Part shown: piece by piece, positions 17,801 through 48,909 of the stretch
How positions within the stretch are numbered: position 1 is the stretch's first letter
Layout of the letters: each line of letters starts with the position of its first letter
Origin: Chloranthus sessilifolius
Taxonomy: Eukaryota > Streptophyta > Magnoliopsida > Chloranthales > Chloranthaceae
Reading direction: 5' to 3'
NCBI GenBank assembly: GCA_021018995.1
Contig: CM037587.1
Span: 61,974,104 to 62,038,103, forward strand
DNA: 64,000 nucleotides
Program-made: the position numbers and the translations under genes
Notes under the pieces: model-generated
Databases searched by the model: none
What the model saw: the letters and a program-made list of their open reading frames with translations, nothing else
Told to the model about the DNA's origin: nothing

Positions 17801-18242
17801 TCCTGGGGGCTCTCCTGTGGTGTGCCTGTCTCTTCTAAGTCTCCTCCCCCTTTCTATCTCGTGGTTTAGAGACTCTAAAGTAGGGGTGAGGATCTCCTAG
17901 CCCATACAAGCACACCCACAAAGAAGCAAAGCTTGCACATTGCAAAAGAATACTTATACACAAAAAATTTATCTAACTATTTTATAGCTATCCAAAGAAT
18001 ACATTTAAACTATCCTAGATAATCTTGCTGGAAAAATTGTTTAAAAGAAAGATGAGATGAGCTTTAGAGTCAGAGAGTTTGCAAACAGAGGTAGCTATGC
18101 TCCAATTGCATTCCAACTATCCTTCACTGCTGCTGTCCAGATCTGTAAGAAAGATTCACAATTATGTCAGCAGTATCAATTATTCACATGTATAAAGAAT
18201 ACTAAGAATACAAAAACTAAGGGTCTACTATTAGAACATCTC

Positions 18243-18260
18243 TCCCCGGCAGCGGCGCTA
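18243..18260 (-). other. E2 primer binding site (tRNA-Asp type)
   Basis: The minus strand reads TAGCGCCGCTGCCGGGGA, two differences from the E1 site. Like E1 it is separated from the LTR by the same six bases. About 440 bp of leader without a gene lies between this and gag. Confidence 0.8.
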
Positions 18261-18266
18261 AAAACT

Positions 18267-19081
18267 TGTTGTCGTTTTCAAGTGTGCTTTGCTTATTGGT
18301 TGGTGTTGAAAATTAATTAAAAACCAAAAACAGAATAGAACAGGGGATGAATCAGCACCACTCGAAAATCCTAGACCTGCAAGACACAGGGTCCTTTGTA
18401 GCAAGTTTTGATAAGTAAGAGTTTGTCCCACAGGGAAAGGTGATCTAAGGCTCTAAGGGAGCCGTCTCTAGTAGTCCCTCCAGATCTTTACTTGGACTTC
18501 GCGAGTTGCGTCGCGAGGTTCTTTTGAGTTTTGAATTGTGCGAGGTTCTTTATCTTTCTCAATCTTCATGAGCTGGGCTTTACCTTCGCCAGGATTCTTT
18601 CTTTCTTGAATGGCGCGCGAACTGCGCGAGGCGTTCTTCTTCTAAGAATTGTACCCCGCGACGACTGCGCGACAGCTACGCGAGAAATCTTCTAAAGCTC
18701 TCTGTCCTCAGCTGTCTTAAGCGAACTTCATGAGATTGAGAGAAGTCTGCTTTGAACTGTACGACACCGAGCGCTGTGTTCTACCCTTGATCTTTGCGAG
18801 AGCTGCGCGGAGTTGAGTTTCTGAAGCTCCCCAGTCATTCATCTGTGCGAGAGGTTGCTTGTAAAGCCTTCGGAAGCTCAGCTGATCTGTGCGAGGCTTC
18901 AAGGTGCATTCTTGCTGAGGGGCATCTGGTGCCAAAGCAGGCTCCATAACAGGATTCTTAGCCTTATTTCACTGCTGATTATTTCCTGAACAAAACACTT
19001 AAGACGAGTTTATTAAGTGGCTAAGGGTCTAATCAAAGGTTAAGTTAATGGGTGAAAAGTGGTACTTTTAAGGTCTTAACA
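18267..19081 (-). repeat. E2 right LTR (5' LTR), short form
   Basis: Matches both ends of the left LTR but is only 815 bp. It keeps better CG-containing motif copies than the left LTR, for example three CGCGAN hexamers 11 bp apart at 18657, 18668 and 18679. Confidence 0.92.
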
Positions 19082-19086
19082 GCCTT

Positions 19087-22515: not shown

Positions 22516-24605
22516 GTCCTAGAGTGGGGTTGGGAAAATAATCCGCCAAGTTCAGAGGTTCAATTACCCCAATATTTCTATCTTCCAAGTCTCTTTGCAG
22601 CGGTGCCATTAAATTTTCCTAGTCGCAGATGTAATCTGATGGGTCAAAGTCTTCATCATCCTCTCCTACCATGCCAATAGTGGGTCTTGAACCAGTTCCA
22701 CTAGGTGGATGTGGTGGCAGTGGCACCTGATGTATGTTTGCATGCTGGTTAGCTTGGGAGGTGCAGGGGGAATGATTTTCCCAGCCTCAATCAGATCCTG
22801 TATTGCGTGCTTTAATGGGAAGCAATGATCACTAGGATGACCTGGCCCTTTGTGGAAGTTGCAATGGGTGTTGGGGTCATAGTTCCTTGGGATGGGATTT
22901 GGTGGAGGCCGCGGTTGGAGTGTTGTGACCAACCCTTTTTCTATTAGTAAGGGTAATAAAATATTTAGTGATTGCCCCAAAGGTGTTCCGGGGTCATCTA
23001 TGCCTCCTTTCAATTCTCGGTTCTCTGTCTCAGCTCGTTTCTGACTGGAGCTGGCTGTGCGGCTTTAAATTGGAATGGGATTATAATAGTGTTAGGCCTA
23101 GCATTCATGACATTCTGCACATCTGTCCCAATTCTTCTATCATTCCTCTACTCAGAGAATCTCTTGACCCCGTCGGCCCTATTTGATTTTTGCTTAAATG
23201 CCCTTCTCTGATAGCGTCCTCGCAACAATTGGCGTTCCTCACCAAATCAGTAAAGCTAGACTGTTGTTGGTAAACGAGGATGTTTGAGATGACTGGCAAG
23301 GTATTTTTTAGGATCATCTCAATCTGCTCGTCATCAAGTATTCTGTTTCTTACCTAAGCTGCCAATGCTCTCCAACGCCCAAGGTAATCGCTGAAGGTCT
23401 CGTTAGAGTTCTGCTTTAATTGGGTCAAATCTGAATTGTGAGGTTTAATGTTTATGTTGTAGACATACTACTCTTGGAATAAATATGTTAGAACTTTCCA
23501 TGTTTTTATCATGGATGGTTCTAGGGACGTGAACCACCTCAAGGTCGGGTCCATCAGACTTTTCTGAAAGACTTTTATAAGCAGGCACTCGTCCCCACCA
23601 TATTGGCACATGTCCCCATAGTATGACTTGAGGTGTGAGATGGGGTTGCCCATGTTGTTATATTTATCAAAGACCGGCACTTTGAATTTTGGGGGCAAGG
23701 GGACTTCAGCAAATAAATATAAGGTCGAGAAATTTGTGGCATGGATTTTGGCTGCACCCATCTTCAACAGCTGCTTGTGGATTTTGTCTAATTGTTCTTT
23801 CAACTACTTAGACTCTTTAGACAGTGGCGCTATTTTTTCAATGGTTGACCTTGATTCACTTTGTGCTACCGGGGGGTTGGTGATTATGGGTGGAGGATTG
23901 ATGCTGGCAAATGCCCAGCATAAGCCCCGCTATTCTTGATCTCATCTTCCTCATATTGTGGGTCTACATATGGTGCAGTGAGGGTGAGATTTTCTTGTTG
24001 GTGTGGCTGGGCTGGATAGGTGTCGGGTGGGACCATTGGAGGTGAGGGAAGTTTTGTGGAGTGATAGGATGAGTGGAATTTAGTTTTTGAGTTGGGCCCT
24101 GATGGGGCCACTGTGTTTTGGGGGAAAGCTTGGAGATGGCATTGGGGTGCAGGGACATGGGTGAATTGGGGTTGATGGAGGATAGGTGCCAGGCTCCCGC
24201 CTTGGGTCGGGTGGGAGGTTTGTGTGTGAGGGAGATATTGAGGGAATTGTGGAGGGTATGGGTATGTGGACCCAAGGTTTGGGCCTTGCTGGGCTTGGGT
24301 ATAGGATAAGGAACTTGGAGGGGTCTAGTTCGTAAGGCCTAGGGAAAATTGGCCCATTGGGCTTTATTGGGTTTGGGTCATTGGGCCCTGGTAGGTTAGA
24401 CCCATTGGGCCTTGGTGGGGTTGGCCCATATGCCTTAGTGCGTTTGGCCCATTGGGCCTTGGTGGGTCTGGCCCATTAGGCCCTGAAGGATGTGGATGAT
24501 GGGGGTTTTGGCCATTGGGCCTTGGTGGGTTTGAGGTAATGAAGAATGGAGACTTGAGAGTGTGCATGATGGGTTGGAAGATGTGTGATTAGAATGAGGG
24601 GGGAT
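22516..24605 (-). mobile_element. Element T2, downstream part (Tat/Ogre-like gag)
   Basis: The minus strand shows gag: a coiled start (MKEQLDKIHKQLLKMG), the core (PISHLKSYYGDMCQYGGDE, then LRWFTSLEP) and a Tat/Ogre-type motif CNFHKGPGHPSDHCFPLKH (about 22830-22870) with AIQDLIEAGKI. It continues the gag that starts at 38784-39470; E1 lies between, flanked by GGGAT on both sides. The downstream pol is not in the window. A broken fossil with several breaks. Confidence 0.8.
24341..24530 (-). repeat. 24-bp repeats in T2 gag, proline/asparagine-rich
   Basis: About six imperfect units of the CCCATTGGGCCTTGGTGGG type. On the minus strand they read as repeated P-N-G-P and P-P-R-type text, an expanded low-complexity part of gag. 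Confidence 0.7.
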
Positions 24606-25426
24606 TGATCAAATTTTAAATAAACCCTTGCAAGTGTACAAGATCTGTTCTAGTGAGGCAAGAACAAGGGTGTCGAACCCACAGGGAAATCTGAAATTTT
24701 ATTCAATTCTTCCTAGAGATGTAGAAAATATCCCCGAGGAAGTACCAAGGGGCAGATTTAATTTTTACCAAAAATTAACACCTTTCTAATTGCAAGAAAG
24801 AAAATAAATTAATCTAAAAATTATGTAATGAGAAATCTAAGAACAAATTTTAAAAACAAGATCAAGGAATTTGCTACCCCAGATTTATACCCTTTTCTAT
24901 TTTTAAACCCACAATTTTATTAACATCAAACACACCATCATTCTAAGAGAAACATGACTAGTAATTAAGCGTGATCATTAACCCGGCATACCCTATCCAA
25001 AAACAATGACTCAGCCTAATCGCGGTATGAATCATGTGAAAAGCATAGCGTATCTCATGGTATTTTAGATCAAAACACTAAAAACATGATCACTACACTT
25101 TGAGAATAACGATTTGATGATGAAATTATCAAACTATGGCATTAAACATAAAATATAGGTACTTATCTGGGGATCGCATCCTCCTTGATCTACAGCCTTT
25201 AGCCTCTCATCCTTGGTGCAAGATCTTCAATTGTATTCAAAACCATTCCCAAAGTAAAGAGCAAAGAAGGTGTAAAAGAAAAATATGTTCTTGGAAAATC
25301 TCAACACAATTTTATTACTCTAAGAAAACCCTCTTACAAAAGTCTCTAATTATTACACAAATTTGTCTCAAAACTAAAATTCTCTATTAAAAAAGCTCTC
25401 CCTATTCCAAAAGCTGTAGCCTCTCT

Positions 25427-25435
25427 TTTATAATG
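25427..25435 (-). promoter_or_regulatory. E1 left LTR TATA box
   Basis: The minus strand reads ATTATAAAAG, 26 bp downstream of the nearest TCAATCGATTGA doublet (25462). Confidence 0.65.
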
Positions 25436-25461
25436 GCCGAACATACCTAACCCTAATTGCC

Positions 25462-25632
25462 TCAATCGATTGAGACAGAAGTCTCAATCGATTGACTTTA
25501 ATCTGAATTCCTTAGGGCACTTCTGCCTTCATGTCTCAATCGATTGAATTTCATGTCTCAATCGATTGACTTTCTAGGGTTGAGTTTTACTCCATCTGTC
25601 AATCGATTGACCATAATGCCTCAATCGATTGA
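25462..25632 (-). promoter_or_regulatory. E1 LTR array: three TCAATCGATTGA doublets
   Basis: Sites start at 25462/25484, 25536/25558 and 25599/25621; every pair is exactly 22 bp apart with a different 10-bp spacer. All six are exact. Confidence 0.93.
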
Positions 25633-25881
25633 ATCTTCAATGCAAAGCCTTCCCTTTCTTGATGGAAGTTGATTCTCTTCATGGCTTTCAATGCTTCTTT
25701 GGACCTTTTTGTCCATAGCTCTTTTATAGCCTGTAATTTCCTTCTTTTATGCACTTGAACGATCTAATTGTCAGAAACACCTGTAAACATCAAAACCTCG
25801 CAACAACCATCAGATGCTTTCATTGAACACCTAAATGTAGGATTTAAAGTGTGAAATATAGTCATATTTCAGCACCGATCA

Positions 25882-25895
25882 CACCCCCAAACCTA
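25882..25895 (-). other. E1 polypurine tract
   Basis: The minus strand reads AGGTTTGGGGGTG right before the LTR start TGATCGG. Confidence 0.85.
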
Positions 25896-26095
25896 CACTT
25901 TGCTAGTCCTCGAGCAAAGAGAATGATAAATATAAAAATAAAACTAACATCCTAAAATTTAAATGCCACTTTCGTAGGGAACACGATTGCACTTAGCATG
26001 TGCAACAAGCCTTTAAACCCCTAGGTGATCCCTAGTGGAGGAGTTGTGTCTCCTGAAGGTTTTCAGTGAAGGTACCTACAAACTTCAAGGCTATC
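25890..26095. other. Conserved non-coding block shared with E2
   Basis: Counterpart of 9755-9960. It keeps AAATGCCACTTTCGTAGGGA and the CTAGG-TGATC-CCTAG hairpin block although the neighbouring LTRs are unrelated. Confidence 0.75.
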
Positions 26096-27496
26096 GGAAT
26101 TTCAGAATTGATTAATCATGTCCTTTAGCAATTAGATGCCCCTGAAAAATCTTTTTAGAATACATCTAACCATGTTCATTCCATTTATGCCACATTCAGT
26201 TCAGACCATTGTCTTCTAATGTTCATATTTCATGCCTCAATGTCATGAGATCATCACTGCCCAAAGTTCTTATGTCAGAGGAAAAACTTAAACTGGAACT
26301 TTTAGATCACATGTCTAGACTCCAATCCTCACCATGGGTATACACTCAGAATGAAATCACTCCCGATGAATGAGTTTTTTTTTTTTTTTCCATGTGTGAG
26401 ATGGAATTGTAACACAATTAGAAGAAAATCTCACAAGTTTAAAGAAAGACGGTGTATCAAAGTATTATACAAGTAATCTCATTAAGAAAGATATCTGTAT
26501 TTTAAGCATGCATATATCAAGCACCATAGACAATTATGTACTTACTCTCCACAAGGCATCTCATCACTCATGATTGGATCAAAAAGGTCTTTTCTAAGGT
26601 TGTAATGGGGCTCGGGTTAAGGTTAAGAAAATAAAGGAAGAATGGATTCAAAAATTTCTGAGAAATTGGAAAAGAAACAACTTCTGATTTTGTATTTCTA
26701 TTCTTTTTCTTTTCTAGTCTCTCACCATTCTTCTCAATATATTTTTCATTGTTTTTACAATTTCCTTTTTCCTTTTTTTTTTTTTTTTTTTTAGTACACA
26801 CTACAACACATATAATCCCCACTTACTCTCTTTTCACTCATTTTCATCCCTTGTTCCTAATTTCTCAGAAATAAGTAAGGGCCAACTGAATTTTCAGAAG
26901 CGGTAAGGGGTTAAAGGTTATTGCAGCTTATCAAAGAATGTATAAAGGTAAATTTTCCAATAAGCTCAAAGGTGTACTAGAAGGATAAATTTATGAGGTG
27001 AGACAGTTTAAGCACAGACGAACCAATGATGGCCTTAGATCATTTCCTTTCATGATGGTAAAATACGCCTATTTGCCTTAAGTTAGTATACAATGATTTC
27101 TAGTGTAATGTTATAACACACATAAAATCACAAATCAAAGTAACCGGAATGAGATTTAACAATTGGAACAAGAATTTCAAGGATACTCCGAATTTATTTC
27201 AGCACTCATCAAGAACGAGGACAAGTGTTTCAAAGACTTTCAAGGTTTTAGTCTTTCTTTGTGATCTTTAGGATTCCATGTTACACACTTAATCCTCCGA
27301 TTTTGAGATTGAAAGCGATTGATGAAAACAATTATTTTTAAGCATGATTCATGATCATTAATGTTCAATATCTACACCTTATGGGCACTCATAAAATAAC
27401 CATGGTATGATAGCATTGGTTAAAAGAATTCAGGAAGAATCTTCATGCTCACAAATATGAATAATCAATTAAATTACAGCATTTGCCAACCATCAG
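26096..27496. other. E1 3' region without a recognisable gene
   Basis: AT-rich with pyrimidine runs (poly-T near 26373-26389 and 26768-26793). No motif copies and no convincing coding region. Confidence 0.5.
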
Positions 27497-27552
27497 TCAA
27501 TCGATTGAGACCAAGTTCTCAATCGATTGACAGATTGGACTCAATCGATTGA
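27497..27552 (-). promoter_or_regulatory. E1 motif triplet
   Basis: Three exact TCAATCGATTGA copies at 27497, 27519 and 27541, each 22 bp apart. Confidence 0.9.
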
Positions 27553-28389
27553 CTGATAAACATTCAAAAATCCGAGAACTGCCAAAACGTTTTTTTTTTT
27601 TATTATTATTATTATTTATTTTTTTTAGAAAACAACCAATTACCCCCCCAAACCTGAACTGGCCAATGTCCTCATTGGTGATGATGCGGAGAAAAGGAAG
27701 AAGGCCTCCCCCAAACCTGTTCTATGCAATCAAAGGACAAAACAACCGAGCAAGTGAAAGAGAGAAAACACAAATACGAAACTAAATTTTTATTAAAAAG
27801 AAAATTATTACAAAGTAAAGCAAAATCGAACGTGATGCAACACGAAACAAACGTACCCAAAACGAAAACAAACCGAACCGAAACAACGAAAACATAAAAA
27901 CAACCCTACCCTAAAGACATGTAAAATGAGATCCTAAAAACCGAAAACAAATCCTCTAGTTCTCCATGGTAGAAATTCCTCCCCGCGGCTTCGGAAAAGC
28001 GTAGTGCCACATTTCTGCAGAAATTCCAACCGCGCCGACGGGTGGGATTGGTGCCCGAGGTGGTGATAAGGGTGGGGTAGGGGTGATACGGGTGATGAAA
28101 CAGATGCTTCATCAAGGTGGAGGATGCCATGGGTGGACCAATCGAATGGTGGCGGGGGAGCGGTGTATCGCACGCTTTGAGCCGGGCTCCCTTAACTTGT
28201 GGATCATGCTCGAGTACGAGGACGGATGGAAGACATGGCGCCAAGGTGGGGATGGATATTGAAAATTGGGACTAAGAGGAGGACCCAGCAAGTGCCCGAA
28301 ATAGCTAAAAAGTTCCTAAAAGAGGGACACTCTAAAGAAAGAAATTTCGGAAGTCGGTGCGTGAAAAATTTTTTTTTAGAACAGAATAA

Positions 28390-28707
28390 TCGATCGATTG
28401 ACATGTTGGTGTCAATCGATTGACAAGAGAGGTCAAAGATATTAAATCCGATCTCCAAATCAAATATTTGGAGAAACTTCCCTATTCCAGCAGGGATTGA
28501 CTGGCTGACCAAGCAAGTTTCAATCGATTGGCACCTAAATGTCAATCGGTTGATATACCATACTAAAAATAGAGGTCAACACCAGGACTGTCCAAATTGA
28601 GGTGCATCAGTCAATCGATTAAGACAGAATTCTCAATTGATTGACTGAGGAAAATATAGGGAAGCATGAGGGAGATCAATCGATTGAGAGAGATCTCAAT
28701 CGATTGA
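28390..28707 (-). promoter_or_regulatory. E1 motif cluster, four doublets
   Basis: Sites start at 28390/28412, 28520/28542, 28611/28633 and 28676/28696. The first three pairs are 22 bp apart, the last 20 bp. Several copies here have one changed base, including CG to TG. They lie on the 3' side of the accessory ORF region. Confidence 0.88.
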
Positions 28708-28849
28708 CTGAGAGCTAGAAATCAACCACAAATAGGCCCAAAACAAAGAAAATATTATCATTGAAGCTTGCATACACCGATCCGATACATCAACAAAAAC
28801 AAAATAAACACAAAACAGAAAAATGTCAAAACAAAACAAGACAATCATT

Positions 28850-29971
28850 AGACATCATCATCATCATCCTCATATTCTGGTTCCCGCTCCTCGTTCATTG
28901 CCGCTCTCGCGCCGTCGATGAAATGGTTGGCACGACCCGGGAATGACTCGCGAGCCATCCGCATAAGGAGAGCGGTTTGAAATCGGGACCGCCTATCCAC
29001 ACCACCGAGCCGTGCATTCAGCCCGTCCATCTGCACCTCGAGGCGAGCAACAGCCGCCTCAGCATCAAAATCGGGGACCTCTTCAGGACGAGGTCGCCTA
29101 ACACCGCCACGTTACGTGTGCGGTTTGACGGGAGGAGGAGGAGCTTCAACCGGGCCGATTACGCGGATGATCGCCTTGATACTCTTGACCCAAACATTCA
29201 CACCATATTGATAAAATTGCATGTCACCCATCACCTCATCGTCATAGATGGGGCAGCCAAGGTGATCCAGAAGGTGCATCACATAGTGTGGGAAGTGTAG
29301 GAGAATCGCGGCAAGCTTGGCGGGTACGGCGGCACCGGCGATATCACTATGGCAGCGGTACATCTCCGCGAGCATCAACCCAGGTGCATCAAACCAAGTA
29401 TTGGTGTGTGCTACGTAGAGCGCCTTCACCCGACCCAAAGTCCTCTCGGTCTTTGTGCCATGTGGCAGAAGGTTATTGGCCATAACGATATCCCAAAAGA
29501 GGATATCCATGGGCAACACAAGCTTTAGGCTGACCGGTCCCACGATGACCACCACACATATCGTTAATCATATCATCTTGGCTACGCTCGATAGCCGGAG
29601 GAAGGTGGTGGTTCACGGGACGAGCCTCGTAGAAATTAAAAGCACGGGCGAGATCAGCGGCATGGAGGTTATATTGCCAGTTATCGATCTCGATGGTGAT
29701 GAACGACAATCCGGTTGGGGAGAGGGTCTCGGGCACCCACACCATCTTTTGATAGAATAGCCGAATGATGCGCGGGGCTACATCGATGGGTGGGGTCAGG
29801 AAGATTTGCCGGAGGGCCTCGATGAATTGAGCGACCGATGCATTCCGCGATGTTCCGGTACTTCACCAAATCGAAAAAAAATTTCGTTTGGAATTGGCGA
29901 TCGATATAATGCTCATTAGGGATGCGCGGTGGATCATTGGCTGGGCGCGGTGGTCGGATAAGGGCAGCCAT
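28850..29971 (-). pseudogene. E1 accessory ORF region
   Basis: Minus-strand frames starting MAALIRPPRPANDPPRIP and running through text such as MANNLLPHGTKTERTLGRV, PGLMLAEMYRC and LLHFPHYVMHLLDHLGCP. This resembles the ORF that Athila-type elements carry after integrase (ATHILA ORF-1 / putative plant transposon protein families), known by name only; no motif proves a function. It is more GC-rich than its surroundings and free of the element's palindromes. A TATA box (30056-30064) and motif array lie just upstream. Broken, with a few breaks. Confidence 0.55.
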
Positions 29972-30055
29972 TTGATCAAAACAAGGATGAGCAAGAGATC
30001 TCGGCGTGACAAGTTGGCTGGATTTCGAATGAGGACTCCACGGGTGGGGAGTACC

Positions 30056-30064
30056 ATATATATA
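30056..30064 (-). promoter_or_regulatory. E1 internal TATA box
   Basis: The minus strand reads TATATATAT about 85 bp before the ATG at 29971 and 9 bp after the nearest motif doublet. The LTR has the same order (doublets, TATA, transcript). Confidence 0.55.
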
Positions 30065-30073
30065 GTGTGAATC

Positions 30074-30497
30074 TCAATCGATTGAGGCTTAATTCTCAAT
30101 CGATTGAGGATGCATGGACTTCCCACGTCGCGAGGTGGGAGCGGCAACGTGGCACTGCCTGGGAGAAAGGGGCTCTTGCCATTACTCCACTATTGAAGGT
30201 CAATCGATTGACACTAAGGTGTCAATCGATTGAGGATTTATAGCGCCGGTTGGTGTCCTTGGAAACGGAAGGGCATTTAAAGGGCCAAGGAAAACCACCC
30301 CAAGAAGGCAGCTGCCATGACAAGAGTTGTCGGGTGGCTGTCCAAATTCCAACACAAATGCACAAACTCTTAAGATGTCAATCGATTGAGGCCAAATGTT
30401 CAATCGATTGAGACAAAAGACTAAAAAAATGATGATGAATCTCAATCGATTGACACAGACCCGTCAATCGATTGAGGAATCACAGTCAATCGATTGA
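30074..30497 (-). promoter_or_regulatory. E1 internal motif array upstream of the accessory ORF
   Basis: Nine exact TCAATCGATTGA copies at 30074/30096, 30200/30222, 30378/30400 and 30442/30464/30486, all 22 bp apart within groups. The array fills the gap between the integrase end (about 30655) and the internal TATA box. Confidence 0.92.
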
Positions 30498-30654
30498 CTG
30501 TGGACTCTTGTTTTTTTTTTTTTTCGGTAAAATAAGACTAAACTGAAAAGAACAACAAACATGGAAAGACACACATAAAAAAAATAAATAAAACAACTGG
30601 GGTGCCTCCCAGGAAGCGCTGAGTTTACATGTCGACAGCTCGACCTTTCAGTGA

Positions 30655-31990
30655 TCAGTCCTCAGGATCACGGAGGTGCATCGCCTCAATCATTAACTGG
30701 GTGATCGGCTCAAACATTGGTTTGAGTCTTTGCCCATTAACTTTACAAATGCGATTGTCAACAAGGCTCCGAATTTCAATGGCACCATGCGCACTAATGG
30801 ACACTACCTGAAATGGGCCTTCCCATCGAGATTTTAATTTTCCCGGGTGGAGTTTCAGTCGGGAATTGAATAACCAAACTTTTTGGCCAACGTGAAATTC
30901 TTTTCGAGAAATGGACGCATCATGCAGCTTTTTGTACCTTTCCTTGTACATCTTCGAATTCTCATACGCTTCGTAGCGTAATTCCTCCAATTCATTCAAT
31001 TGCAATCGGCGATGCGACCCGGCTGCGTGCATGTCAGAATTAAATCTTTTTATCGCCCAGAATGCTTTATGCTCCAATTCGACAGGAAGATGGCAAGCTT
31101 TCGTAAACAATTCAAACGGAGACATTCCAATCGGAGTCTTGAATGCGGTCCGATATGCCCACGAGCCTCTCGAGAGCCGGTTTGACCAATCTTTTCTATC
31201 CCGCGGACCGTTTTTCTAGAATTTGCTTAATTTCCGATTAGACACTTCCACTTGACCGCTAGTTCTGGATGGTAGCAGTAAAGCAACTTTGTGAGTGACG
31301 CCGTACTTCTTCATTAAGGTGGCAAAATGGCTATTACAAAAATGCGAACCGCCATCGCTGATGATTGCTCTTGGAATCCCGAATCGGGTAAACACATTTT
31401 CTCTGAGGAATTTGACCACAACCTTATGATCATTCGATCGGGTTGCCACAACTTCTATCCATTTCGAGACATAATCAACAGCCACTAGAATATATGAAAA
31501 CCCAAAGGATGGGGGAAAAGGACCCATAAAGTCAATCCCCCAAACATCAAAAATTTCAACAATCAGAATTGGATTAAGAGGCATCATATTCCGTTTTGAA
31601 ATATTGCCAAGCTGTTGACATCGTCGGCATTCCTTGCAAAATTGAGCAGCGTCACGAAAGATGGAGGGCCAGTAGAATCCGCTTTGAAGGATTTTCTGGG
31701 CGGTCTTTTGTCCTCCGAAATGGCCGCCACAGGCCCCAGCATGACACAAGTGTAGGACGCTCATTTACTCCTCTTCGGGTACACATCTCCTGATGAGCTG
31801 ATCTGAGCAGAATTTGAACAGACATGGTTCATCCCAAAAATAGTATTTTATTTGGGAGAAGAAGAGATTCTTATCATTCTTACCCCACTCAGTGGGGATT
31901 CTGCCAGTAACCAGATAATTCACAATGTTCGCAAACCATGGAACCTTTGGATAAGCTACATCAATTGCTAGCAAATGTTCATCCGGAAAC
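30655..31990 (-). pseudogene. E1 integrase region
   Basis: Zinc-binding end (HAGACGGHFGGQK, CKECRRCQQLG), catalytic core ([31 protein letters not shown]) and C-terminal part ([29 protein letters not shown]). Very similar in order and wording to E2 and C integrases. A fossil. Confidence 0.9.
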
Positions 31991-34550
31991 GTGTCACGGA
32001 TGGTCTCAGGTATTTCAGATTCTTCAGGTAGAATTCTCGACAAATGATCAGCCACCACGTTCTCAACCCCCTTCTTATCCTTAATCTCGAAATTGAACTC
32101 TTGGAGCAGAAGGATCCAACGGATTAATCTCGGTTTAGTATCCTTCTTTGCTAGAAGATATTTTGAGCGGAATGATGATGAAAAGACCACTATTTTTTAT
32201 CCAAGCAAATAGGAACGAAACTTGTCCGGAGCATACACCACGCCTAATAATTCTTTCGGTGGTGGTGTAATTGAGTTGGGCATCAATTAATGACTTGCTA
32301 GCATAATAAATTACGTGAGGTAATTTATTCACCCTTCCGCCCTAGGGACTCCAATTGCGTGTCGGATGCATCACACATGAGTTCGAATGGGAGAGAATAA
32401 TCCGGTGGATGATTGGTGCATTGGATAAGAGCTCTAATTTCAAAATGCTTGCATGCGTCCTCGAAGAATTCAAAAGGAACATCTTTGCCAAGCAAGGTGC
32501 ACAATGGTTTAGCCACCTGAAATCCTTAATGAACCTTCTATAAAATCCTGCATGACCCAAAAATGATCGAATTTGTCAAACACTGTGGATGAGTGGCAAG
32601 TTAGCAATTAGATCAACTTTTGCTCTATCCACCTCGATTCCTTTCTACGTGAGATAATGTGCCCCAGAACAATCCCTTGTTTAACCATAAAATGGCTCTT
32701 CTCCCAGCTAAGAACAAGTTTGGAGTCAACACAACGTTGCAGCACTTGTGAAAGATGATTCAAACAAGAATCAAAGGTTCTCCCAAAAACCGAGAAGTCG
32801 TCCATGAATACTTCAATGAATTTGTCGATCATATCTGAAAATATGGCCAACATACACCGTTGAAATGTGGCGGGCATTACATAGGTCAATGGCATCCTGC
32901 GGTATGCAAACGTACCATAAGGGCATGTGAACGTTATTTTTTCTTGATCAGCTGGGTAGACAGGCACCTGATTGTATCTCGAATACCCATCAAGAAAACA
33001 GTAAAACTCTTGCCCAGCTAACTTCTCAAGGATTTGATCAATGAGCGGAAGGAAATGATCCTTTACGGTGGCGGTGTTTAATTTCCGAAAGTCAATGCGC
33101 ATATCGCCATCCAAAGAGTTTCTTGGGGACCAATTCTCCTTCAAATAGCTTCCTTCACGGTGATTCCGGACTTTTTTCTAACAATTTGGTGGACTAACCC
33201 ATTCACTATCAGAAATCGGATAGATGATTCCAGGATCAAGGAGTTTAATGACTTCTTTTAGAACGACTTCTTGCATGTTTGGATTAAGTCGCCTCTGTAG
33301 TTCCCTTGAAGGTTTACTCGCGTCTTCCAAATGTATTTTATGCATACATATCGATGGGTCAATCCCTTTGAGATCAGTGAGAGTCCAACCGATAGCTTCC
33401 TTGTGCTCTTTCAGCACCTTCAACAACTCTTTTTCTTGTTCTGCCGACAACGTGGATGAGATTATTACTGGAAGTGTTTCATGAGGTCCCAGAAAAGCAT
33501 ACTTGAGGGACTCTGGCAATTGTTTCAATTCCACAAGTGGTGGTTGCTCAAGTGATGGAGGCAGCATGTCCTTCACCTCAACAGGTAATGATTCTATCTC
33601 AGGCACACTCGCATCTAAGTGGTCATCCTGGCATGATGAGCTAGACTCTATCTCGTCGGACTGCTTCTCTTCCGATCCTTTCTCTTCATAGATGGCCAAC
33701 AAAGCATTTTCAAATTCCTCTTTGGTAAGCATTGAAGGTAATGCCTCATCCACCACTTCATCTATCTGATCGATGTAAAAACATTCGACCTCATCCTCGT
33801 TTGGGAAATGGTTCATCGCATGGAAGATATTCAATCAAACCTTCATGTTTCCAAAAGAAATGTCCATGACTCCGTCGACAATTAATGCACGCGCTGGTCA
33901 GAAGCGAGAAACGGACGTCCAAGGATGATGGGGACTTGATTAAGTGACTTAACGTGTGTCCATGTCCAAAACAACAAAATCTCGGAAAGACAAACTTATC
34001 TATTCCAACCAAGACATCCTCAATAACGCCCCTCGGTCGTCTTTCTGATCTATCTGCCAGTTGCAGTGTGACCGTTGTGGGTCTCAATTCACCCCGTCCG
34101 GGTTTCTCGTACAATGAATATGGGGTTTAATTAACACGGCTCCCAAATCCAATAACGCTTTCCCAATGGTTGCCCACCAATGACACATGGAATAGTAGGA
34201 ACCAGGGTCTTTTAGTTTTTGTGGGGTTTCCAATTGCAATATAGAACTGACTTGATTAGTCAAGAACACTTTCCTCGAAACATGATTACGTGCCTTTCTC
34301 TTCCGAGTGCATAAATCTTTGAAAAACTTTGCATACTCAGGCACTTGCTTGATCGTTTCAAGCAATGGAAGGTTTATCTTTACTTGCTTAAATGTTTCGA
34401 AAATATCTTCCATTTTTGTTGGTCCCTTTCCCATTCTTGATGGAGGAGTTAGGCATTGAGGAAATGGTGCCTTTGGGACAAAAGGTGCGGGTTCCCCTTC
34501 TGAATCTTCGTCTTGTCCTTGTTGGATAGTTGAGGGAGACTCATTCTCTA
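31990..34550 (-). pseudogene. E1 protease, RT and RNase H region
   Basis: Protease text (KALLDLGA near 34160), acidic linker, pre-RT segment ICMHKIHLEDASKPSREL, RT (QILEKLAGQEFYCFLDGYS, TFQRCMLAIFSDM, FMDDFSVFG, SWEKSHFMVKQGIVLGH) and RNase H remains ([23 protein letters not shown]). Athila-type. A fossil with several breaks. Confidence 0.9.
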
Positions 34551-36379
34551 TCACCTTTTCTTTTCCCTTCTCTCTTCTTTTCTCTTCCTCTTTCTCTTTT
34601 CTGGTCTCTTTCTCTTTCTCTTTTCTTTTCTCTTTCTCCGCTCTTCTCGCTGACTCTTTCTCTTTCTCTGCTTCCTGCTCTTTATGCCTTCACTTTCTTC
34701 TTCGTCGCCACGGCACTTCCACTTGATTATGAACTTCCGTCCACTTTCGCATACTTTCAATGTGACTTTTAATGGTCTTTCATCAGATGATGCTTGGCCT
34801 CGAGGATTGTTGATGGGTTGGCTGGGAAGCTTACCCTCCTCTCGTCGACTCAGTTGATTTGCCAATTGACTGACTTGGTCGATTATCATCTGTTGAAAAG
34901 ATTGCATACTGCGCATCACCTTATCTTCCAGATCAGAATCCTTTGAAGTGCTTGTATGAGATTGATTAGGATTCTGATTGAAATTTCGATTTTCCTAAAT
35001 CAGAATTTGGATGAGAATATGAAGCATTCTGCTGAAAGTTAGAATTCTGGTGAAAATTAGAATTCTGCTGAAAATTCTATTGTGGATGGAAATTTTGCTG
35101 AAAATTTTGTGGAAACGCTTGTTGTCCACTCATAGGATTGGCTCGGTATTGCTGGTTGACCTGACCAGTTTGGTTTGATCCACCCCATCCTAAGTTGGGG
35201 TGATTTTTCCACTCTGGGTTGTAGGTATTTGAGTACACGTTTCTACCTTGCCGCTGATAAGATTGAGTGACATTTATCTGCTCTGGAAGAGTAGATTCAT
35301 CAGGAAGGAATGTCAAGGTAGTTGGGCACTCATTAGCCATATGACCTGGGTGTTCACAAATTGAGCATACAGTGGGGGTGACAGGAACTTTAGCTTGCTT
35401 GGTTGCAGCTAACAACATGTTCATCTGTTTGGACAGCATATCAACCTTGGTTGATAGATCAGAGTTATTATTGTTGACCTCATACAATCCGTCTTTGGTC
35501 AACACATGAGATTTAGGTGCTAAGTCCAAAGTGGTTCGCCCCAGTGTCTCACTTTGTATCGAGGTTTGATACAATTTCTCAAACAATGCCCACAACTCAT
35601 CGGCCTCTTTCGTGGCACAAGATCCACCGCAAGATGCATCAACCATGCGTCTTTCTTCAGGAATCAGTCCATTGTAGAAACTTTGGACTTGTTGCCACCT
35701 TGGAACTTGATGGTTAGGGCAACTTCTGATCAACTCCTTAAAACGTTCCCAACATTCATGGAATGTCTCTGTAGGTTGTTGGGAAAAGAAAAGGATCTTT
35801 TGACGCATCTCTATGGCTTTAGTCATGGGAAAATATTTTTTTAGGAACTGACGATGTAGCTCGGCCCAACTCTGAATAGATTGCGGTTCTAAAGAATAGA
35901 ACCACGTTTTTGCCTTGTCTCTTAAAGAGAACGGAAAGAGTCGGAGCTTCGCTATCTCATCAGTAACATTGTGGACTCTGAACATTTTGCATACCCCAGT
36001 GAACTCGTTCAGATGAACGTCTTGGATTTTCGTTGCCAAACCATGGAATATTGGTAGCATTTGAATCATCGGATTTGAATTCATAATGATTCCCTGGAAT
36101 GGGAGCATGCATGATACACTCCTGATCCTCGTATAAACCAGGATCATTATAGTATACAAGTGTTCTAGGTCCCCCATAGTAATTATTGTTCCCATTATTT
36201 CCATTATTCACATTGTTGCCATTCTGATTGTTGTTTTCATTCATTTCTTGCTCTTGATCAGCCATGGTATCAGTAGGATGATACTGATTCCGTTGGATTC
36301 TACGATTGTCTCGCAAAGATCGTTCGATCTCCGGATTAAACGGTAGCAAATGTGGGTGATGAGAACGAGTAAAGCTCAT
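34551..36379 (-). pseudogene. E1 gag region
   Basis: Gag start MSFTRSHHPHLLPFNPEIER, an asparagine-rich stretch, the gag core (FPFSLRDKAKTWFYSLEP, FLKKYFPMTKAIEMRQKI, FHECWERFKELIRSCPNH) and a CCHC knuckle CSICEHPGHMANEC at about 35330-35375. Then a glutamine/asparagine-rich tail and a charged run (about 34560-34720) coded by TCTTT-type simple sequence. Confidence 0.88.
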
Positions 36380-36434
36380 ACACTACACCCACAATCAAAG
36401 GTTTGAAGAACCCAAAATAAGTCCTCAAACAGAC

Positions 36435-36759
36435 TCAATCGATTGAGACAGTGGTCTCAATAGATGGACAGAAGCACATAAAATTTCACACAAATGACTT
36501 GTCAGTCAATCGATTGAGGGGATACTCTCAATCGATTGAGGTTCCAAGAGTCAGAAAGCACACAGAATATCAGAAAAAGACTTTGTCAGTCAATCGATTG
36601 AGAGGCTTCTCCCAATCGATTGAGGTTCAAAGATTAAAAACACACAAGAATTCTGTCAATTGATTGACATAGGAATGTCAATCGATTGAGAAAAGAGTAG
36701 AGAGCACACAGAAAGTGGCTCAGTATCAATCGATTGAGAAAGGAGCTTCAATCGATTGA
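36435..36759 (-). promoter_or_regulatory. E1 leader motif array, five doublets
   Basis: Sites start at 36435/36457, 36506/36528, 36590/36612, 36656/36678 and 36726/36748, all 22 bp apart. Starts 56 bp upstream of the gag ATG. Three copies have changed bases. Confidence 0.9.
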
Positions 36760-36779
36760 ATGCTGCTATGAACAGAGAG

Positions 36780-37330
36780 CAAAGTAAGAAGAAAAAGGAA
36801 AGAAAACCACTCAATTTTTATTTTTATTTTTATTTTTATGTTTATTATTATTATTATTATTATTTTTTTTTTTTAAAATTAAAATTCAGAAAAATAAAAA
36901 AAATAAAATCTAAATTCGAAAATTAGAAATTAGAAATTAAAAACCTAGAAAACCCTTCCTAAAAGAAAACTTCTAAACTAAGAATATAAATTTCCTAAAA
37001 ATATAAACTTCCTAAAATATAAACTTCCTAAAAGAATAAAAAAAATAAAAATATGAACTTCCTAAAAATAAAAACTTCCTAAAAGAATAAAAAAAAATAA
37101 AAATATAAACTTCCTAAAAACTATTTTTAGAAAATCCTATAAAATCTAAAAGAGGAAAATAAAAAAAATAAAAAATAATAATAAAAAAAAAAAAATCCTA
37201 CTAAACTAAGAATTTCTAAAAACCTAAACTTCCTAAAAGAAGATTGCAAAATCTAATCTAAGAGAGAAGAATTAAGGAAAGAAAAAAAAAAAAATTTTTT
37301 TTTATTTTTTTATATATTTTTTTCAAATTT
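36780..37330. repeat. E1 leader low-complexity A/T region
   Basis: ATT and poly-T runs (about 36815-36875, 37286-37325), and about six imperfect copies of an ATAAACTTCCTAAAA-type unit at about 36985-37125. No gene. Confidence 0.85.
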
Positions 37331-37331
37331 G

Positions 37332-37431
37332 TCAATCGATTGACAGAGTTGAGTCAATCGATTGAGGCACAATTATTGTCAAAAAAAACACACAACCTCA
37401 ATCGATTGAGAAACAAGTCTCAATCGATTGA
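37332..37431 (-). promoter_or_regulatory. E1 leader motif array, two doublets
   Basis: Exact TCAATCGATTGA copies at 37332/37354 and 37398/37420, 22 bp apart, close to the primer binding site. Confidence 0.92.
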
Positions 37432-37483
37432 CTGTTATAAAAAAAAAATCTCTAGTCGGAATTTACTCGAAATTTCGCCGATT

Positions 37484-37501
37484 TCCCCGGCAACGGCGCC
37501 A
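37484..37501 (-). other. E1 primer binding site (tRNA-Asp type)
   Basis: The minus strand reads TGGCGCCGTTGCCGGGGA, the site typical of Athila elements, six bases from the LTR. Confidence 0.9.
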
Positions 37502-38326
37502 AAAACTTGATCAAATTTTAAATAAACCCTTGCAAGTGTACAAGATCTGTTCTAGTGAGGCAAGAACAAGGGTGTCGAACCCACAGGGAAATCTGAAATT
37601 TTATTCAATTCTTCCTAGAGATGTAGAAAATATCCCCGAGGAAGTACCAAGGGGCAGATTTAATTTTTACCAAAAATTAACACTTTTCTAATTGCAAGAA
37701 AGAAAATAAATTAATCTAAAAATTATGTAATGAGAAATCTAAGAACAAATTTTAAAAACAAGATCAAGGAATTTGCTACCCCAGATTTATACCCTTTTCT
37801 ATTTTTAAACCCACAATTTTATTAGCATCAAACACACCATCATTCTAAGAGAAACATGACTAGTAATTGCATGATCATTAACCCGGCATACCCTATCTAA
37901 AAACAATGACTCAGCCTAATCGCGGTATGAATCATGTGAAAAGCATAGCGTATCTCATGGTATTTTAGATCAAAACACTAAAAACATGATCACTACACTT
38001 TGAGAAAAACGATTTGATGATGAAATTATCAAACTATGGCATTAAACATAAAATATAGGTACTTATCTGGGGATCGCATCCTCCTTGATCTACAGCCTTT
38101 AGCCTCTCATCCTTGGTGCAAGATCTTCAATTGTATTCAAAACCATTCCCAAAGTAAAGAGCAAAGAAGGTGTAAAAGAAAAATATGTTCTTGGAAAATC
38201 TCAACACAATTTTATTACTCTAAGAAAACCCTCTTACAAAAGTCTCTAATTATTACACAAATTTGTCTCAAAACTAAAACTCTCTATTCAAAAAGCTCTC
38301 CCTATTCCAAAAGCTGTAGCCTCTCT

Positions 38327-38335
38327 TTTATAATG
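38327..38335 (-). promoter_or_regulatory. E1 right LTR TATA box (active 5' position)
   Basis: The minus strand reads ATTATAAAAG, directly downstream of the motif array; as the 5' LTR of this copy it would drive the genomic transcript. Confidence 0.65.
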
Positions 38336-38361
38336 GCCGAACATACCTAACCCTAATTGCC

Positions 38362-38534
38362 TCAATCGATTGAGACAGAAGTCTCAATTGATTGACTTTG
38401 AGTTCGAATTCCCTTAGGGCACTTCTGCCTTCATGTCTCAATCGATTGAATTTCATGTCTCAATCGATTGACTTTCTAGGGTTGAGTTTTACTCCATCTG
38501 TCAATCGATTGACCATAATGCCTCAATCGATTGA
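38362..38534 (-). promoter_or_regulatory. E1 right LTR motif array
   Basis: Three doublets, each 22 bp apart. One copy (38384) reads TCAATTGATTGA, a CG to TG change relative to the left LTR. Confidence 0.93.
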
Positions 38535-39762
38535 ATCTTCAATGCAAAGCCTTCCCTTTCTTGATGGAAGTTGATTCTCTTCATGGCTTTCAATGCTTCT
38601 TTGGACCTTTTTGTCCATAGCTCTTTTATAGCCTGTAATTTCCTTCTTTTATGCACTTGAACGATCTAACTGTCAGAAACACCTGTAAACATCAAAACCT
38701 CGCAACAACCATCAGATGCTTTCATTGAACAGCTAAATGTAGGATTTAAAGTGTGAAATATAGTCATATTTCAGCACCGATCAGGGATGTTTTGGGAGGC
38801 TTTCCAATTGGTGTAATCTCGGACCATCTCATCCATCATGGCCATTGGAGAGGGGGTGGATGGAAATGGTTCATTTGATGGAATGTGGGGTATGGGTGAA
38901 GTGAATGTGTGGGAAAAACTGGGCATGGCCCCGGTAAAATTGGGCAGGACTTGGGTAGATAGGGGGGGTATGTGGTGGATCATAGAAACTGGGTGTGGTA
39001 TGGGGGAAGGTGGGTGGATCGAGTATATGTTGGGAAGATGAAGGATGGGGTATGGTTGTAAAGGTAGGGAATTGGGTCGGGTTTTGAATGGATGTGAGTG
39101 GAAATTTTGATTGATTTGGCATGGACATGGGGGGAGAAATGGGCATGTTTTGGGAACGTGATGGGAAATGAGGTGTCGGATTTTAGGTGTTTTGAGAGGT
39201 GGTGGATGGGAAGATAGGGGCACCGAAGGGGCCGATGACGATAAAGGGAGGTTGGGTGAGAGGGATGGATGTGAACATCTCTTCCGCATGGGAATGAGTT
39301 GGAGAACTTGGCGGGGATGAGTCGGGATCGACGTATGCCGGATCCACTGCCCACGACATGGCTTGGTGACGGGTGGGGTACGGGTGCCTCGAATGGGGCT
39401 CGTAAAGCTTTCTCCTTCTCCCCCTATGGGATGATGGAGGATAAGGTGATGTCGTTGTGCCGGCACCACGATGGTTTCTTCTTTTTCGGGTTTTTTGGTT
39501 TATTTAATTTTTTGAAATTTTATAAATGGATTTTTATGATGAACAACTCCGGGGCCCTTGAATGCCCGTTCTGGATGGTTTTTGTACCCGAAATAAATCT
39601 TGTGGCGAGATCCTGATGCGCTTCAAAAGAATCAAAGGGGGACCCTTTGATCTATTGAAGGCATGAGAATCAATGCAAACAACCCAATCCCCTGGAGCGA
39701 GTCAATAAGAAGTTACTCTCTTTTGATCGACGGGGGTGTAGTGGGTGTTGGGGAGTGCGGGA

Positions 39763-40014: not shown

Positions 40015-40520
40015 GCATAAACAGTGGGGTCAAATATTTTTGATAGTAGAACAGGAGCCCGAAATTGGTCTCTTTTTTTGGCTTTCTAGAAGCAATGCTT
40101 TCAGGGACTGATTTCCTAGTTGCACCAGGTCTCTCCTCACCGAACATAGGGATACAAGGCCGATTCGGGACTACTAAAGTTCTCCCCCAAGGGTTTTAGG
40201 CTTCGCAACTGGATAGGTTACTCACCCTATATGCCTCTGGCGCAAGCGCCTTCTCAGATACTAGGTGGGGTGGTTCTTTTTCGGATCATCACCACTAGGG
40301 GCTGCCGCTGTACCGAGAATCAGGGCGTTTATATCTTGGCCTAAAATTCCCAACCTATGAAAATCTACCCCCATAAAAATTTAATTATGTCCCCTCTTGG
40401 TTCAGTTTTATTTTCAGATATTAGGAGAGTTTTTTTAAAGTACAAAAATGAGGGGTGATGGTCCCATGTCGCCTCTACGGGTCGGCGTCCACTGATGAGA
40501 TATGATCAAACGTAAAGCAA

Positions 40521-40724
40521 TGCGCAAGTAGGCCCGCCAATCGACTAAGGCACATAAATGATGGAAAGTAAAGGAATCGTAAAGACAATGAGCAAGTAGG
40601 CCCGCCAATCGGCTAAGGCACGTAAATGACAGAAAATAGAGAAATTGTAAAGACAGTGCGCAAGTAGGCCCGCTGATCGGCTAAGGCACGTAAAATGACA
40701 GAAAAGTAGGGGTGGAAAAATTGA
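40521..40724. repeat. 68-bp tandem repeat, three copies
   Basis: Units begin at 40521, 40589 and 40657 (TGCGCAAGTAGGCCCGC type). It lies in the T2 leader close to the primer site. Confidence 0.88.
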
Positions 40725-40822
40725 CGGAATCGTAGGGGTGAGTGAAAAATAAGAGAAAAACAAGCAAATGTTAGTAAAAACAAAGAAAAAGGCCATGTTT
40801 CAAGGGAAAGCTCTACTAGCAA

Positions 40823-40843
40823 TTCCCTAGCAGAGTCTCCATC
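40823..40843 (-). other. T2 primer binding site (tRNA-Arg type)
   Basis: The minus strand reads ATGGAGACTCTGCTAGGGAA, close to the tRNA-Arg site used by Ogre/Tat elements, two bases from the LTR end. Confidence 0.7.
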
Positions 40844-40845
40844 TG

Positions 40846-42401
40846 TGCAACCGTGGGGTTTTTGACAATCTCGTCGTGACGATGTGCACTCTCAAAAAAA
40901 TATAAAATCGCCACCCAGAGATTTTGGTGTCTCGGGAAACCTAAATAAATTTTATAAGCACCGAAGTGCCAAAAATATGACTCTGATTCACCAGACTATG
41001 CCAAAGGCTCTTGGATAGGAGCTTCGGTTATCAATCGGGAAGGTGTTAGGCACCCGTCCAACCCACTTAAAAGCAGTCTCTACTTGTGGCCAAAATAAAC
41101 TAGAAAAATAGGAAAGAAAAGAGCACTTCCTCTTACCCTAAGGCACCTTAACCCTATTTGTGCCCCTCCGCCACTATAGAGATTTTAACGGCGTAATGGC
41201 ACAAATTCAAGGGTAGAACAAAAGCTAAGAAGGTAGAGGAATAGAGGGGAGAGCCGGAGCTCTCGGGCCCTTGTTGAACGTGCGTGGACCTTTGCGTAGG
41301 TGCACTTGACGAGCTTCCGATAGCTTGAATGGTTGGAGAATGGGTTCTAACCTCTAAGGCCTAATAGCTAAGGGGTAGAGGAAGAAGGCTAAGGGGCGGT
41401 TCTCTTTTAACTCAAGGTTTTTTACTGGAAGATGGGGTCTAAGGGGGCTTTGAATTCTGGAATTAGTATGGAATGGGTGCACCAATGGGAGGAAAAGCTT
41501 CTCTTAATCTTTTTCTCTCTTTTAAAATTTTTCAAGCCCTCGAAAATGGAGGGGTGCCTCTCTATTTATAGGAAAAAGGGAGGTTAGGAGGGTGCTTAAG
41601 TGCTAATTAGGGTTAGCAATTAGGTAATTTTCTAATCTAAGGTTTCCTAGGATTTTGAAAGCTTAGAAATGTGAGCAATGGGCTTCAATGGTAGATGATA
41701 GGGTGTGGTTTCAAATGACTAAAGGGTTACAAATAGGGTAATCAGGGGTGCAACAGTCCTAATGAAAGACATCCTAAACATTGAAATGGTCAACAAGTCA
41801 AACCCCAAAAGTAGATTTTGAGCAAAAACCTATGGTTACAGTAGTTAAGCCTGGCGCATGTATTATACACGCCAAGCATAGCTACAGTGTCCAAAAGTTC
41901 AGAGCCTAATGAGGGGCCCACCTATACTTGGCATGTGTATTAGATGTGCCAAGCCATTTTTGGAAAAAAATGGCTTAGTGCATGTAATACATGCCCCATG
42001 TATGCCCCAACCAACTGCAGTTCCTGGGCACTACTTGGATCGTCGTAACTTTTGACGTACAACTCGGATTGAAGTGATTCTTTGCTTGTTGGAAAGTTGA
42101 AAACCTCTAATTTTCAATGGAATAAGATTCAATCTTGGTAGAGGTCCCTTCTAGACCTGGCACATATCTTTCTCTGACCATGGCTCGGGAGGGTCAACTA
42201 TGGGTCCGAAGAGGTCGGGGCTAATTCCTACGGGTATGGGCAAGTTCCTAAGAGTTTGGGAAGATTCTTAAGAGTTTTGGGCAAGTTCTTAGGGGTTTGG
42301 GAAGATTCCTAAGGGTATGGGAGAAGCTATCGGAAGCTCGGGGGTGCGCCTCTCTCGAAGTATGTTTCGATCGGGCCATGGGCCAAATTTGGGTGTCTAC
42401 A
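40846..42401 (-). repeat. T2 5' LTR
   Basis: The minus strand starts TGTAGACACCC and ends GGTTGCA. It has three palindromes (41851-41998), a TATA box TATAAATAGA (41562-41571) downstream of them, and the AAGGTGTTAGGCACCC block shared with the fragment at 19551-20110. Confidence 0.85.
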
Positions 42402-45274: not shown

Positions 45275-46250
45275 TCTAACACCCCCGAATTCCCGAATCC
45301 GATTCTATGAGTGTTGCACGTGCTCGTAAATCGAAAACAGTCTACGCCTTATAACCTCGACAAAATCAAACACTAATTCGAATAGGGATGTAAATAATTG
45401 ATGGTGTATCAGGGCACACTAGAGACATTTGACATTTTTTACCTTAACACTGAGACAATTACTTTGACCAGTCTGATCACACGAACGTGACTCATTTACT
45501 TAGACGAACGTGGAATCATCGACCTGAAATTTTGACATCGATCTCCACGTGTCAGCATAAACGTATTGTTGAGCCTTTGGATGAAAGACCCATACACGTG
45601 CCCATCTACTGGGAACAGTTGACACTTTGGTTTTAAAATTGATCACGACGTGTCAAACCGACCACCGTGGCTATTGAAACCCCTAATCCAATGGTGTTCT
45701 AAAGGCCCACACACCAAGTGTTCTGTACGAATTGTTCACCAAATCAAAACCTTTGGAGATTAAATGGCTCCACGTATAACCAAAGCCCTTGCCATGTCTT
45801 CTCTTCATGCACTTACTTGAGAATTGAGACTCGGATCCCGAGGTCGGATCAGGCTTGTGCCCACCCCCACAAACATTTAATTTGAAAGTAATTAACTTTA
45901 AGTTAATTAAGAATCTAAAATGAGATGGATGGCCAACACTAGATCAAGGGCGATCAGGTGCACTCTAGGCACGAACCGAACCCAGCTCCAGTGACCCAAA
46001 CTGACATATGTTTATAGGTATAGATGTAACATCCTGAAAACTCTGAACCCGAATACGCTGACTAAATGTTCATGTTCGATAACCATAGGCGATGTGCGCC
46101 TCGGATTTAAAATAATTATTTTATTATTTTTCGTAAAGGTGTGTCGTTGTATTAGGGGAGTGCATTATAAAGTCCACTTTTGGGCCCTTGGATGAGAACT
46201 AGTACACCAAGCCGTAGTGTGCAAGCTTCACACTGCATCGACACCACATG

Positions 46251-48823: not shown

Positions 48824-48909
48824 AACACTCAAGTGTTAATATAAAACCAAAAATCAAACTAAGAGATTGCGGATCAAAAATCCAACAAACGATTTGAATG
48901 CCGATAACA

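Follow-up and report, generated by a model that had tools for sequence, protein, structure and literature searches.

In a 64-kb window of the Chloranthus sessilifolius genome (contig CM037587.1; the window is the whole stretch of 64,000 nucleotides analysed, and positions are counted from its first letter), the Ty3/gypsy long terminal repeat (LTR) retrotransposon E1 carries copies of the palindrome TCAATCGATTGA, set in strict pairs 22 bp apart. This array is real and strongly non-random. On balance, we favour a reading in which the doublets serve, as double-stranded DNA, as tandem operators for a dimeric factor that probably belongs to the host, where we infer binding, cooperativity, an effect on transcription and the nature of the factor from the sequence.

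A search for TCAATCGATTGA with up to two mismatches across the window yields 47 matches. All except a stray two-mismatch site at 55899 lie inside 25462-38534. Dinucleotide shuffles (n = 100) give a mean of 4.91 and a maximum of 12 matches, none reaching 47, and an order-2 model built from the remainder of the window predicts 0.0019 perfect matches to TCAATCGATTGA in 14178 bp. The 46 palindromes of E1 comprise 37 exact and nine altered copies. They form 22 groups, 20 doublets and two triplets (27497-27552 and 30442-30497), with no single sites. Steps within groups measure 22 bp in 23/24 cases, the remaining one being 20 bp (28676/28696). An independent recount thus returns the numbers of sites, groups and steps given in the first-pass annotation of this DNA. 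As the second LTR duplicates three groups, the independent total is 40 sites in 19 groups. By region, we find six sites in the 5' LTR, 14 in the leader, nine between pol and an accessory open reading frame (ORF), 11 in the 3' noncoding region and six in the 3' LTR. None lies in gag-pol or in the accessory ORF, in agreement with the places named before. Under random placement, the chance that none of the 22 groups falls into the 6900 coding bases of 14179 is 4e-7, with the second-LTR groups included and groups taken as independent. The sense strand of E1 is the minus strand, and on it the groups are arranged as follows:

38362-38534, minus strand: three doublets in the 5' LTR, LTR positions 250-422
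37332-37431, minus strand: two doublets in the leader, directly past the primer binding site
36435-36759, minus strand: five doublets in the leader ahead of gag, in diverged units 66-84 bp apart
30074-30497, minus strand: four groups between pol and the accessory ORF (three doublets and one triplet)
28390-28707, minus strand: four doublets on the 3' side of the accessory ORF, one of them with the sole 20-bp step
27497-27552, minus strand: triplet in the 3' noncoding region
25462-25632, minus strand: three doublets in the 3' LTR

The final arm of the triplet at 30442-30497 grows into a perfect 22-bp palindrome, CACAGTCAATCGATTGACTGTG, at 30481-30502.

The arms are kept and their surroundings are not. 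Mean pairwise identity is 0.963 for arms, 0.359 for spacers and 0.277 for outer flanks; spacers as conserved as arms, a pattern that the first-pass annotation had associated with simple tandem duplication, are not found. The five leader units (36435-36759) resemble tandem copies of one another that have since diverged, and in their alignment arm columns account for 20 of the 22 invariant columns. That arms are kept while unit flanks and spacers have diverged speaks against a simple recent tandem duplication. The same data bear on the idea that the doublets are a functionless by-product, a palindrome pair spread inside E1 by duplication or gene conversion. It would fit the tandem appearance of the five leader units, and also the comparison of the two LTRs, in which the arms differ at 1/72 positions, matching the LTR average and thus no better kept than the LTR as a whole. 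However, it does not account for arms that stay constant between diverged flanks and spacers, for the lack of target duplications at group borders, for direct-repeat identity at chance between doublet flanks, or for 0 sites in 6900 coding bases. We regard it as improbable, the least credible of the readings weighed here, while a single element is not proof of selection on the arms. Two specific routes were tried and rejected: tandem duplication of a 22-bp unit, given the chance-level identity of the doublet flanks (57/200 versus 57.4 and 61/200 versus 59.1), and insertion of mobile mini-palindromes, given a mean target-duplication score at group borders of 2.05 compared to 2.01 at random places. 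Among the ten arm changes, four alter the cytosine in the central CpG; three of the four are C to T, which hints at methylation at the palindrome sites.

The first-pass annotation took the arms and their distance to be all that is kept. This is correct for both, but the spacers are not patternless. For the 20 steps of 22 bp, with one LTR counted, the outermost spacer bases are complementary in 14/20 (G-C in eight, C-G in six), while shuffling of the 3' halves gives a mean of 9.0, and 1.6% of shuffles reach 14. The summed paired run is 29 compared to 15.8 in shuffles, a value reached by 0.2% of them (0.3% without the triplets, 0.1% without the LTR); since this statistic was picked after the per-depth test, it counts as moderate evidence. 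If only one of the five tandem leader units is kept, the complementarity weakens to 1.8% of shuffles. Depths 2-5 taken singly show no complementarity, 10% of shuffles attain the total over the first three depths, and symmetry of the outer flanks and of each arm's own flanks is at chance. This pairing of spacer ends suggests that a doublet forms one unit, which may have a single 34-bp dyad.

Complementary spacer ends would equally lengthen a stem, and in the genomic RNA the doublets could form functional hairpins with stems of 12-15 bp and loops of 4-10 nt. These might serve packaging, allow dimerisation via the self-complementary arms, or give rise to small RNA. The ability of the pairs to form stem-loops, noted in the first-pass annotation, is borne out: sense RNA folds far better than its shuffles at 36425-36770 (z -9.2) and at 28380-28720 (z -8.0), although good folding is expected of any close pair of palindromes. 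Mean hairpin energy on the sense strand is -18.1, whereas reshuffling the halves gives -16.9 (the observed value is attained by 1.7% of 300 shuffles), yet the non-sense plus strand gains equally (-18.4 compared to -16.9, 0/300 shuffles). In maize Sireviruses, palindrome-rich cis-regions of the LTR attract small RNAs (Bousios et al. 2016 as cited in the part of PMC10760457 used here). These LTRs resemble E1 in having hairpin-capable palindrome clusters in a regulatory region, with a different motif, CACCGGACNNNGTCCGGTG. What the hairpins do not need is a 10-base spacer, present in 23/24 cases, or palindromic arms of one fixed sequence. In addition, no change in one arm is compensated at the base it would pair with in the other, the LTR sites lie upstream of the likely TATA box, and the spacer complementarity weakens when the tandem units are reduced to one, as described above. 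We rank hairpins second and consider them unlikely as the explanation of the array. Among the three readings offered at first, protein binding is the one that best matches kept arms, rigid pitch and exclusion from coding DNA; RNA hairpins are possible but leave the pitch and the palindromic arm unexplained.

The operator reading depends on where the doublets lie relative to the genes and candidate promoters of E1, which comprise the following features:

24606-38783, sense strand minus: E1, Ty3/gypsy LTR retrotransposon with gag-pol and a broken accessory ORF, LTR pair found by self-comparison
37508-38783, minus strand: 5' LTR, 1276 bp, TG..CA ends
24606-25881, minus strand: 3' LTR
37485-37501, minus strand: primer binding site TGGCGCCGTTGCCGGGG, read from the sequence
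30655-36379, minus strand: gag-pol, frames broken, 0 palindrome sites
28848-29971, minus strand: accessory ORF, open pieces in at least three frames, 0 sites
38325-38332, minus strand: TATAAAAG, candidate LTR TATA box, LTR position 452
30057-30064, minus strand: TATATATA, candidate internal TATA box

E1 is flanked by a 5-bp target duplication, GGGAT, at 24601-24605 and 38784-38788, and its LTRs differ by 13 mismatches over 1279 alignment columns. Pfam matches are Retrotrans_gag, RVT_1 and integrase (rve). We assign E1 to Ty3/gypsy because reverse transcriptase (RT; 32611-33177, minus strand) comes ahead of integrase (31219-31764) in the sense direction. The primer binding site TGGCGCCGTTGCCGGGG is probably of the tRNA-Asp type. 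The tRNA-Asp primer sequence TGGCGCCGTTGCC, a putative mark of the Athila lineage, stands at 37485-37501 in E1, and the one paper found with it does not name Athila. An Athila feature that E1 does have is an additional ORF, broken, between pol and the 3' LTR (28848-29971, sense strand). The primer site TGGCGCCGTTGCCGGGG and the ORF 3' of pol suggest a possible Athila assignment. The accessory ORF has a probable ATG at 29971, and its pieces, we infer, once formed a single ORF. They have no significant Pfam match; a LexA_DNA_bind match at E 0.1 is not significant. Single-sequence structure models of two pieces were discarded at a predicted local distance difference test (pLDDT) score of 42-44. 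Between two site clusters, the sense strand stays open for 121 GC-rich codons (27906-28271); this stretch has no Pfam match and is possibly a remnant of another ORF. The Rfam search gave no match at the gathering threshold, and the tRNA search found none.

On the sense strand, the final palindrome of the 5' LTR lies 30 bp upstream of TATAAAAG; the LTR doublets and this box likely constitute the LTR promoter. TATATATA lies 10 bp downstream of the group at 30074-30107 and about 90 bp upstream of the probable accessory ATG, a placement from which we read the group and TATATATA as the probable internal promoter of the accessory ORF. The 14178 bp of the E1 sense strand contain 11 overlapping TATAWAW matches at nine places. 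At 37316, within an AT-rich run, one such match follows a leader doublet by 16 bp. The word TATAAAAGAG occurs twice in each LTR, at positions 154 and 452 of the repeat (38630/38332 and 25728/25432), and the two copies flank the three doublets.

For tandem operators, we propose that each TCAATCGATTGA would be bound by a symmetric dimer on two inverted TCAATC half-sites, possibly of the homeodomain type. Two dimers two helical turns apart would face nearly the same side of the helix and form a cooperative unit over the 34-bp dyad. The three LTR units directly upstream of the TATA box would drive genomic RNA. Those groups that follow pol and precede the accessory ORF lie directly upstream of the second TATA box and would probably drive this ORF from an internal promoter, while the leader and 3' groups would serve as additional enhancers. 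A host transcription factor is a more likely reader of the sites than a protein of E1.

E1 is one of several retrotransposons that adjoin or are nested in the window. E2, a Ty3/gypsy element at 7258-19083, has LTR pieces that are 92-96% identical, the left LTR being apparently interrupted at 7479-9155. The inner edge of this left LTR is 76% identical to its counterpart in E1 (9710-9936 versus 25844-26086). E3 occupies the plus strand at about 40500-46300 (approximate limits). Its pol match ends near 45285, where a repeat common to 45277-46240 and 63038-64000 starts, and another element may cut into E3 at this point. A pair of direct repeats of 2.2 kb each, 92.5% identical, at 47616-59576 likely represents the LTRs of another element. 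RT identity to E1 is 61% for E2 and 70% for E3. Neither carries a TCAATCGATTGA site at up to two mismatches; the stretches most like a doublet still mismatch at 10 of 24 positions, and shuffled sequence does as well (8-10). None of the accessory ORF pieces, four in all, has a match in E2 or in E3, the latter being cut off near 45285. Either E1 acquired the array or its relatives lost it, on a comparison of three elements of which E3 is incomplete. In viral contigs, the exact doublet gives 0 matches, the gag and pol C-terminal queries find no relatives, and the relaxed core pair gives one match (L042, site and flanks read).

Pairs of the same core also occur in bacteria. Scanning a prokaryote collection for the CAATCGATTG pair at 22 bp returns 41 loci (L001-L041, sites and flanks read), all with bacterial titles and none yielding a plant relative, compared to a chance expectation of about 0.2 over 257 Gb if equal bases are assumed. 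They belong to Sphingomonads, Bacteroidota, rhizobia and others (e.g. L002, 5071-5102). In a survey of one order, 396 bacterial genomes were searched with the core pair allowed 10-40 bp apart. One pair each is found in 24/396, at 21 bp (1), 22 bp (7), 23 bp (13) and 24 bp (3). Genome G001, one of the 24, had been chosen for its 22-bp pair; without it, 23/23 pairs lie at 21-24 bp. The bacterial pairs thus share with E1 the CAATCGATTG core palindrome and its pairing, and differ in being single pairs in unrelated organisms. That all lie at 21-24 bp fits two protein dimers two helical turns apart, and we would guess at operators of a dimeric repressor. A reading as LacI-type TTGCAATCGATTGCAA operators was dropped, as only 4/82 arms have the form TTG..CAA; the outer bases of the arms vary. 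Pairs of the CAATCGATTG core thus settle at two helical turns in another setting, which does not identify the plant factor.

Closer to E1 is the repeated motif (RM) of Sireviruses, for which we draw on parts of PMC2829016. Each of these Ty1/copia elements repeats one palindrome many times. The copies cluster in the LTR, and Sireviruses that bear env also have them in the linker that precedes this gene. In most of these elements the motif lies immediately ahead of a TATA box; it is conserved while its flanks diverge. A role in regulation and as an internal env promoter was proposed there, with the factor unnamed, and such palindromic arrays were Sirevirus-specific among the Ty1/copia elements compared. 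Table 3 of the same paper gives the tobacco element Tnd-1 eight copies of ACAATCGATTGT in its LTR. E1 and ACAATCGATTGT have an identical 10-bp core; with 1024 possible 10-bp palindromes and 13 listed motifs, the chance of such a match is of the order of 1%. The CGG-CCG core is missing in E1 and likewise in Tnd-1. The same 10-bp core in the unrelated E1 and Tnd-1 points to a shared host factor.

The opposite assignment would have E1's own protein, e.g. the accessory ORF product, recognise the doublets and remove silencing, in the manner of VANC acting on the VANDAL elements, which are DNA transposons of Arabidopsis. In the parts of PMC5735166 and PMC10398659 available to us, VANC targets resemble the E1 array as short element-specific motifs repeated in noncoding DNA. 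The VANC motif is missing from the coding probes tested (PMC5735166, in part), and the E1 palindrome is similarly kept out of coding DNA, with 0/46 sites in gag-pol or the accessory ORF. A self-encoded factor would fit sites in every noncoding block, beyond promoters, as the same text reports for VANC targets, and would fit E2 and E3, which have neither the motif nor an accessory ORF match, in a comparison that rests on three elements with E3 cut off near 45285. However, the same core in unrelated Tnd-1, which has no env gene according to the portion of PMC2829016 used, suggests a host factor instead, the accessory pieces have no significant Pfam domain, and their structure models are uninformative. 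The Pfam search of these pieces recognised no VANC relative; the VANC sequence itself was not compared. We consider recognition by a protein of E1 rather doubtful, a little below the hairpins. A bolder version still would be an operator code evolved by the retrotransposon, in which 22-bp palindrome pairs through all noncoding DNA are read by a self-encoded protein that opens chromatin or couples the genomic and internal promoters, a self-recognition like that of VANC; to this we assign a slightly smaller likelihood again.

Several observations weigh against operators for a host factor. Distances between groups show no 10.5-bp phasing (Rayleigh p about 0.25); a 22-bp period gives p 0.024 among four periods tried, which we do not count as evidence. 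TATA matches in AT-rich DNA are weak evidence, and those at 38630, 37791, 30242, 25728 and 24889 are not close behind a doublet. The second TATAAAAG, at 38630 (LTR position 154), is located upstream of the LTR doublets, and transcription from there, if it is the true start, would put these doublets inside the transcript. The 11 sites 3' of the accessory ORF and the 14 leader sites are away from obvious promoters. As far as the portion of PMC2829016 used here goes, 77/79 of the Sirevirus linker copies are upstream of env, and Tnd-1 is one of two Sireviruses without a conserved TATA motif, also lacking CpG islands, so that Tnd-1 backs the motif and not the TATA placement. The bacterial parallel concerns unrelated organisms and proteins, with full TCAATCGATTGA in 4/82 arms. 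A search of the open-licence literature found no plant factor that binds CAATCGATTG.

In comparison with known systems, E1 shares with the Sirevirus RM, as described in the parts of PMC2829016 used, a palindrome in at least eight copies (40 with one LTR counted) and an LTR cluster upstream of a TATA box (positions 250-422 ahead of TATAAAAG at 452, the second TATAAAAG being at 154). It departs from the RM in its Ty3/gypsy instead of Ty1/copia Sirevirus host, and in the distribution of internal sites: RM copies occupy the linker upstream of env, whereas E1 has nine sites before and 11 after the accessory ORF, with 14 in the leader. Its 40 sites, in one LTR and the internal noncoding blocks, compare to at most 32 in Sireviruses (linker and 3' LTR). 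A fixed pitch such as the 22 bp of E1 is not mentioned in those parts. The first-pass annotation had named VANDAL elements and VANC as the nearest parallel. Repetition of a motif in noncoding DNA is indeed common to both, but the VANC targets, YAGTATTAY and AGTTGTCC/AC, are not palindromes, lie in DNA transposons and have no fixed pair spacing described in the available part of PMC5735166. The Sirevirus RM is closer because it is palindromic, belongs to LTR retrotransposons, lies upstream of TATA and env, and in Tnd-1 has the identical core. Full-text search of open-licence papers for the TCAATCGATTGA 12-mer gave nothing related by title, and for CAATCGATTG, among the matches listed, only Bousios et al. 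2010 (PMC2829016) concerns plant retrotransposon motifs by title. We conclude that a palindromic repeated motif of plant retrotransposons is, on the portion of that work used, of a known kind, while the strict doublet, its spread over all noncoding blocks and the Ty3/gypsy host appear new within the open-licence literature searched. E1 thus adds a Ty3/gypsy array with the Tnd-1 core, in strict pairs, placed ahead of the likely LTR promoter and also of what is probably an internal promoter for the accessory gene. It makes two questions directly testable, namely which plant factor reads such arrays and how env-like ORFs are expressed in plant retroelements.

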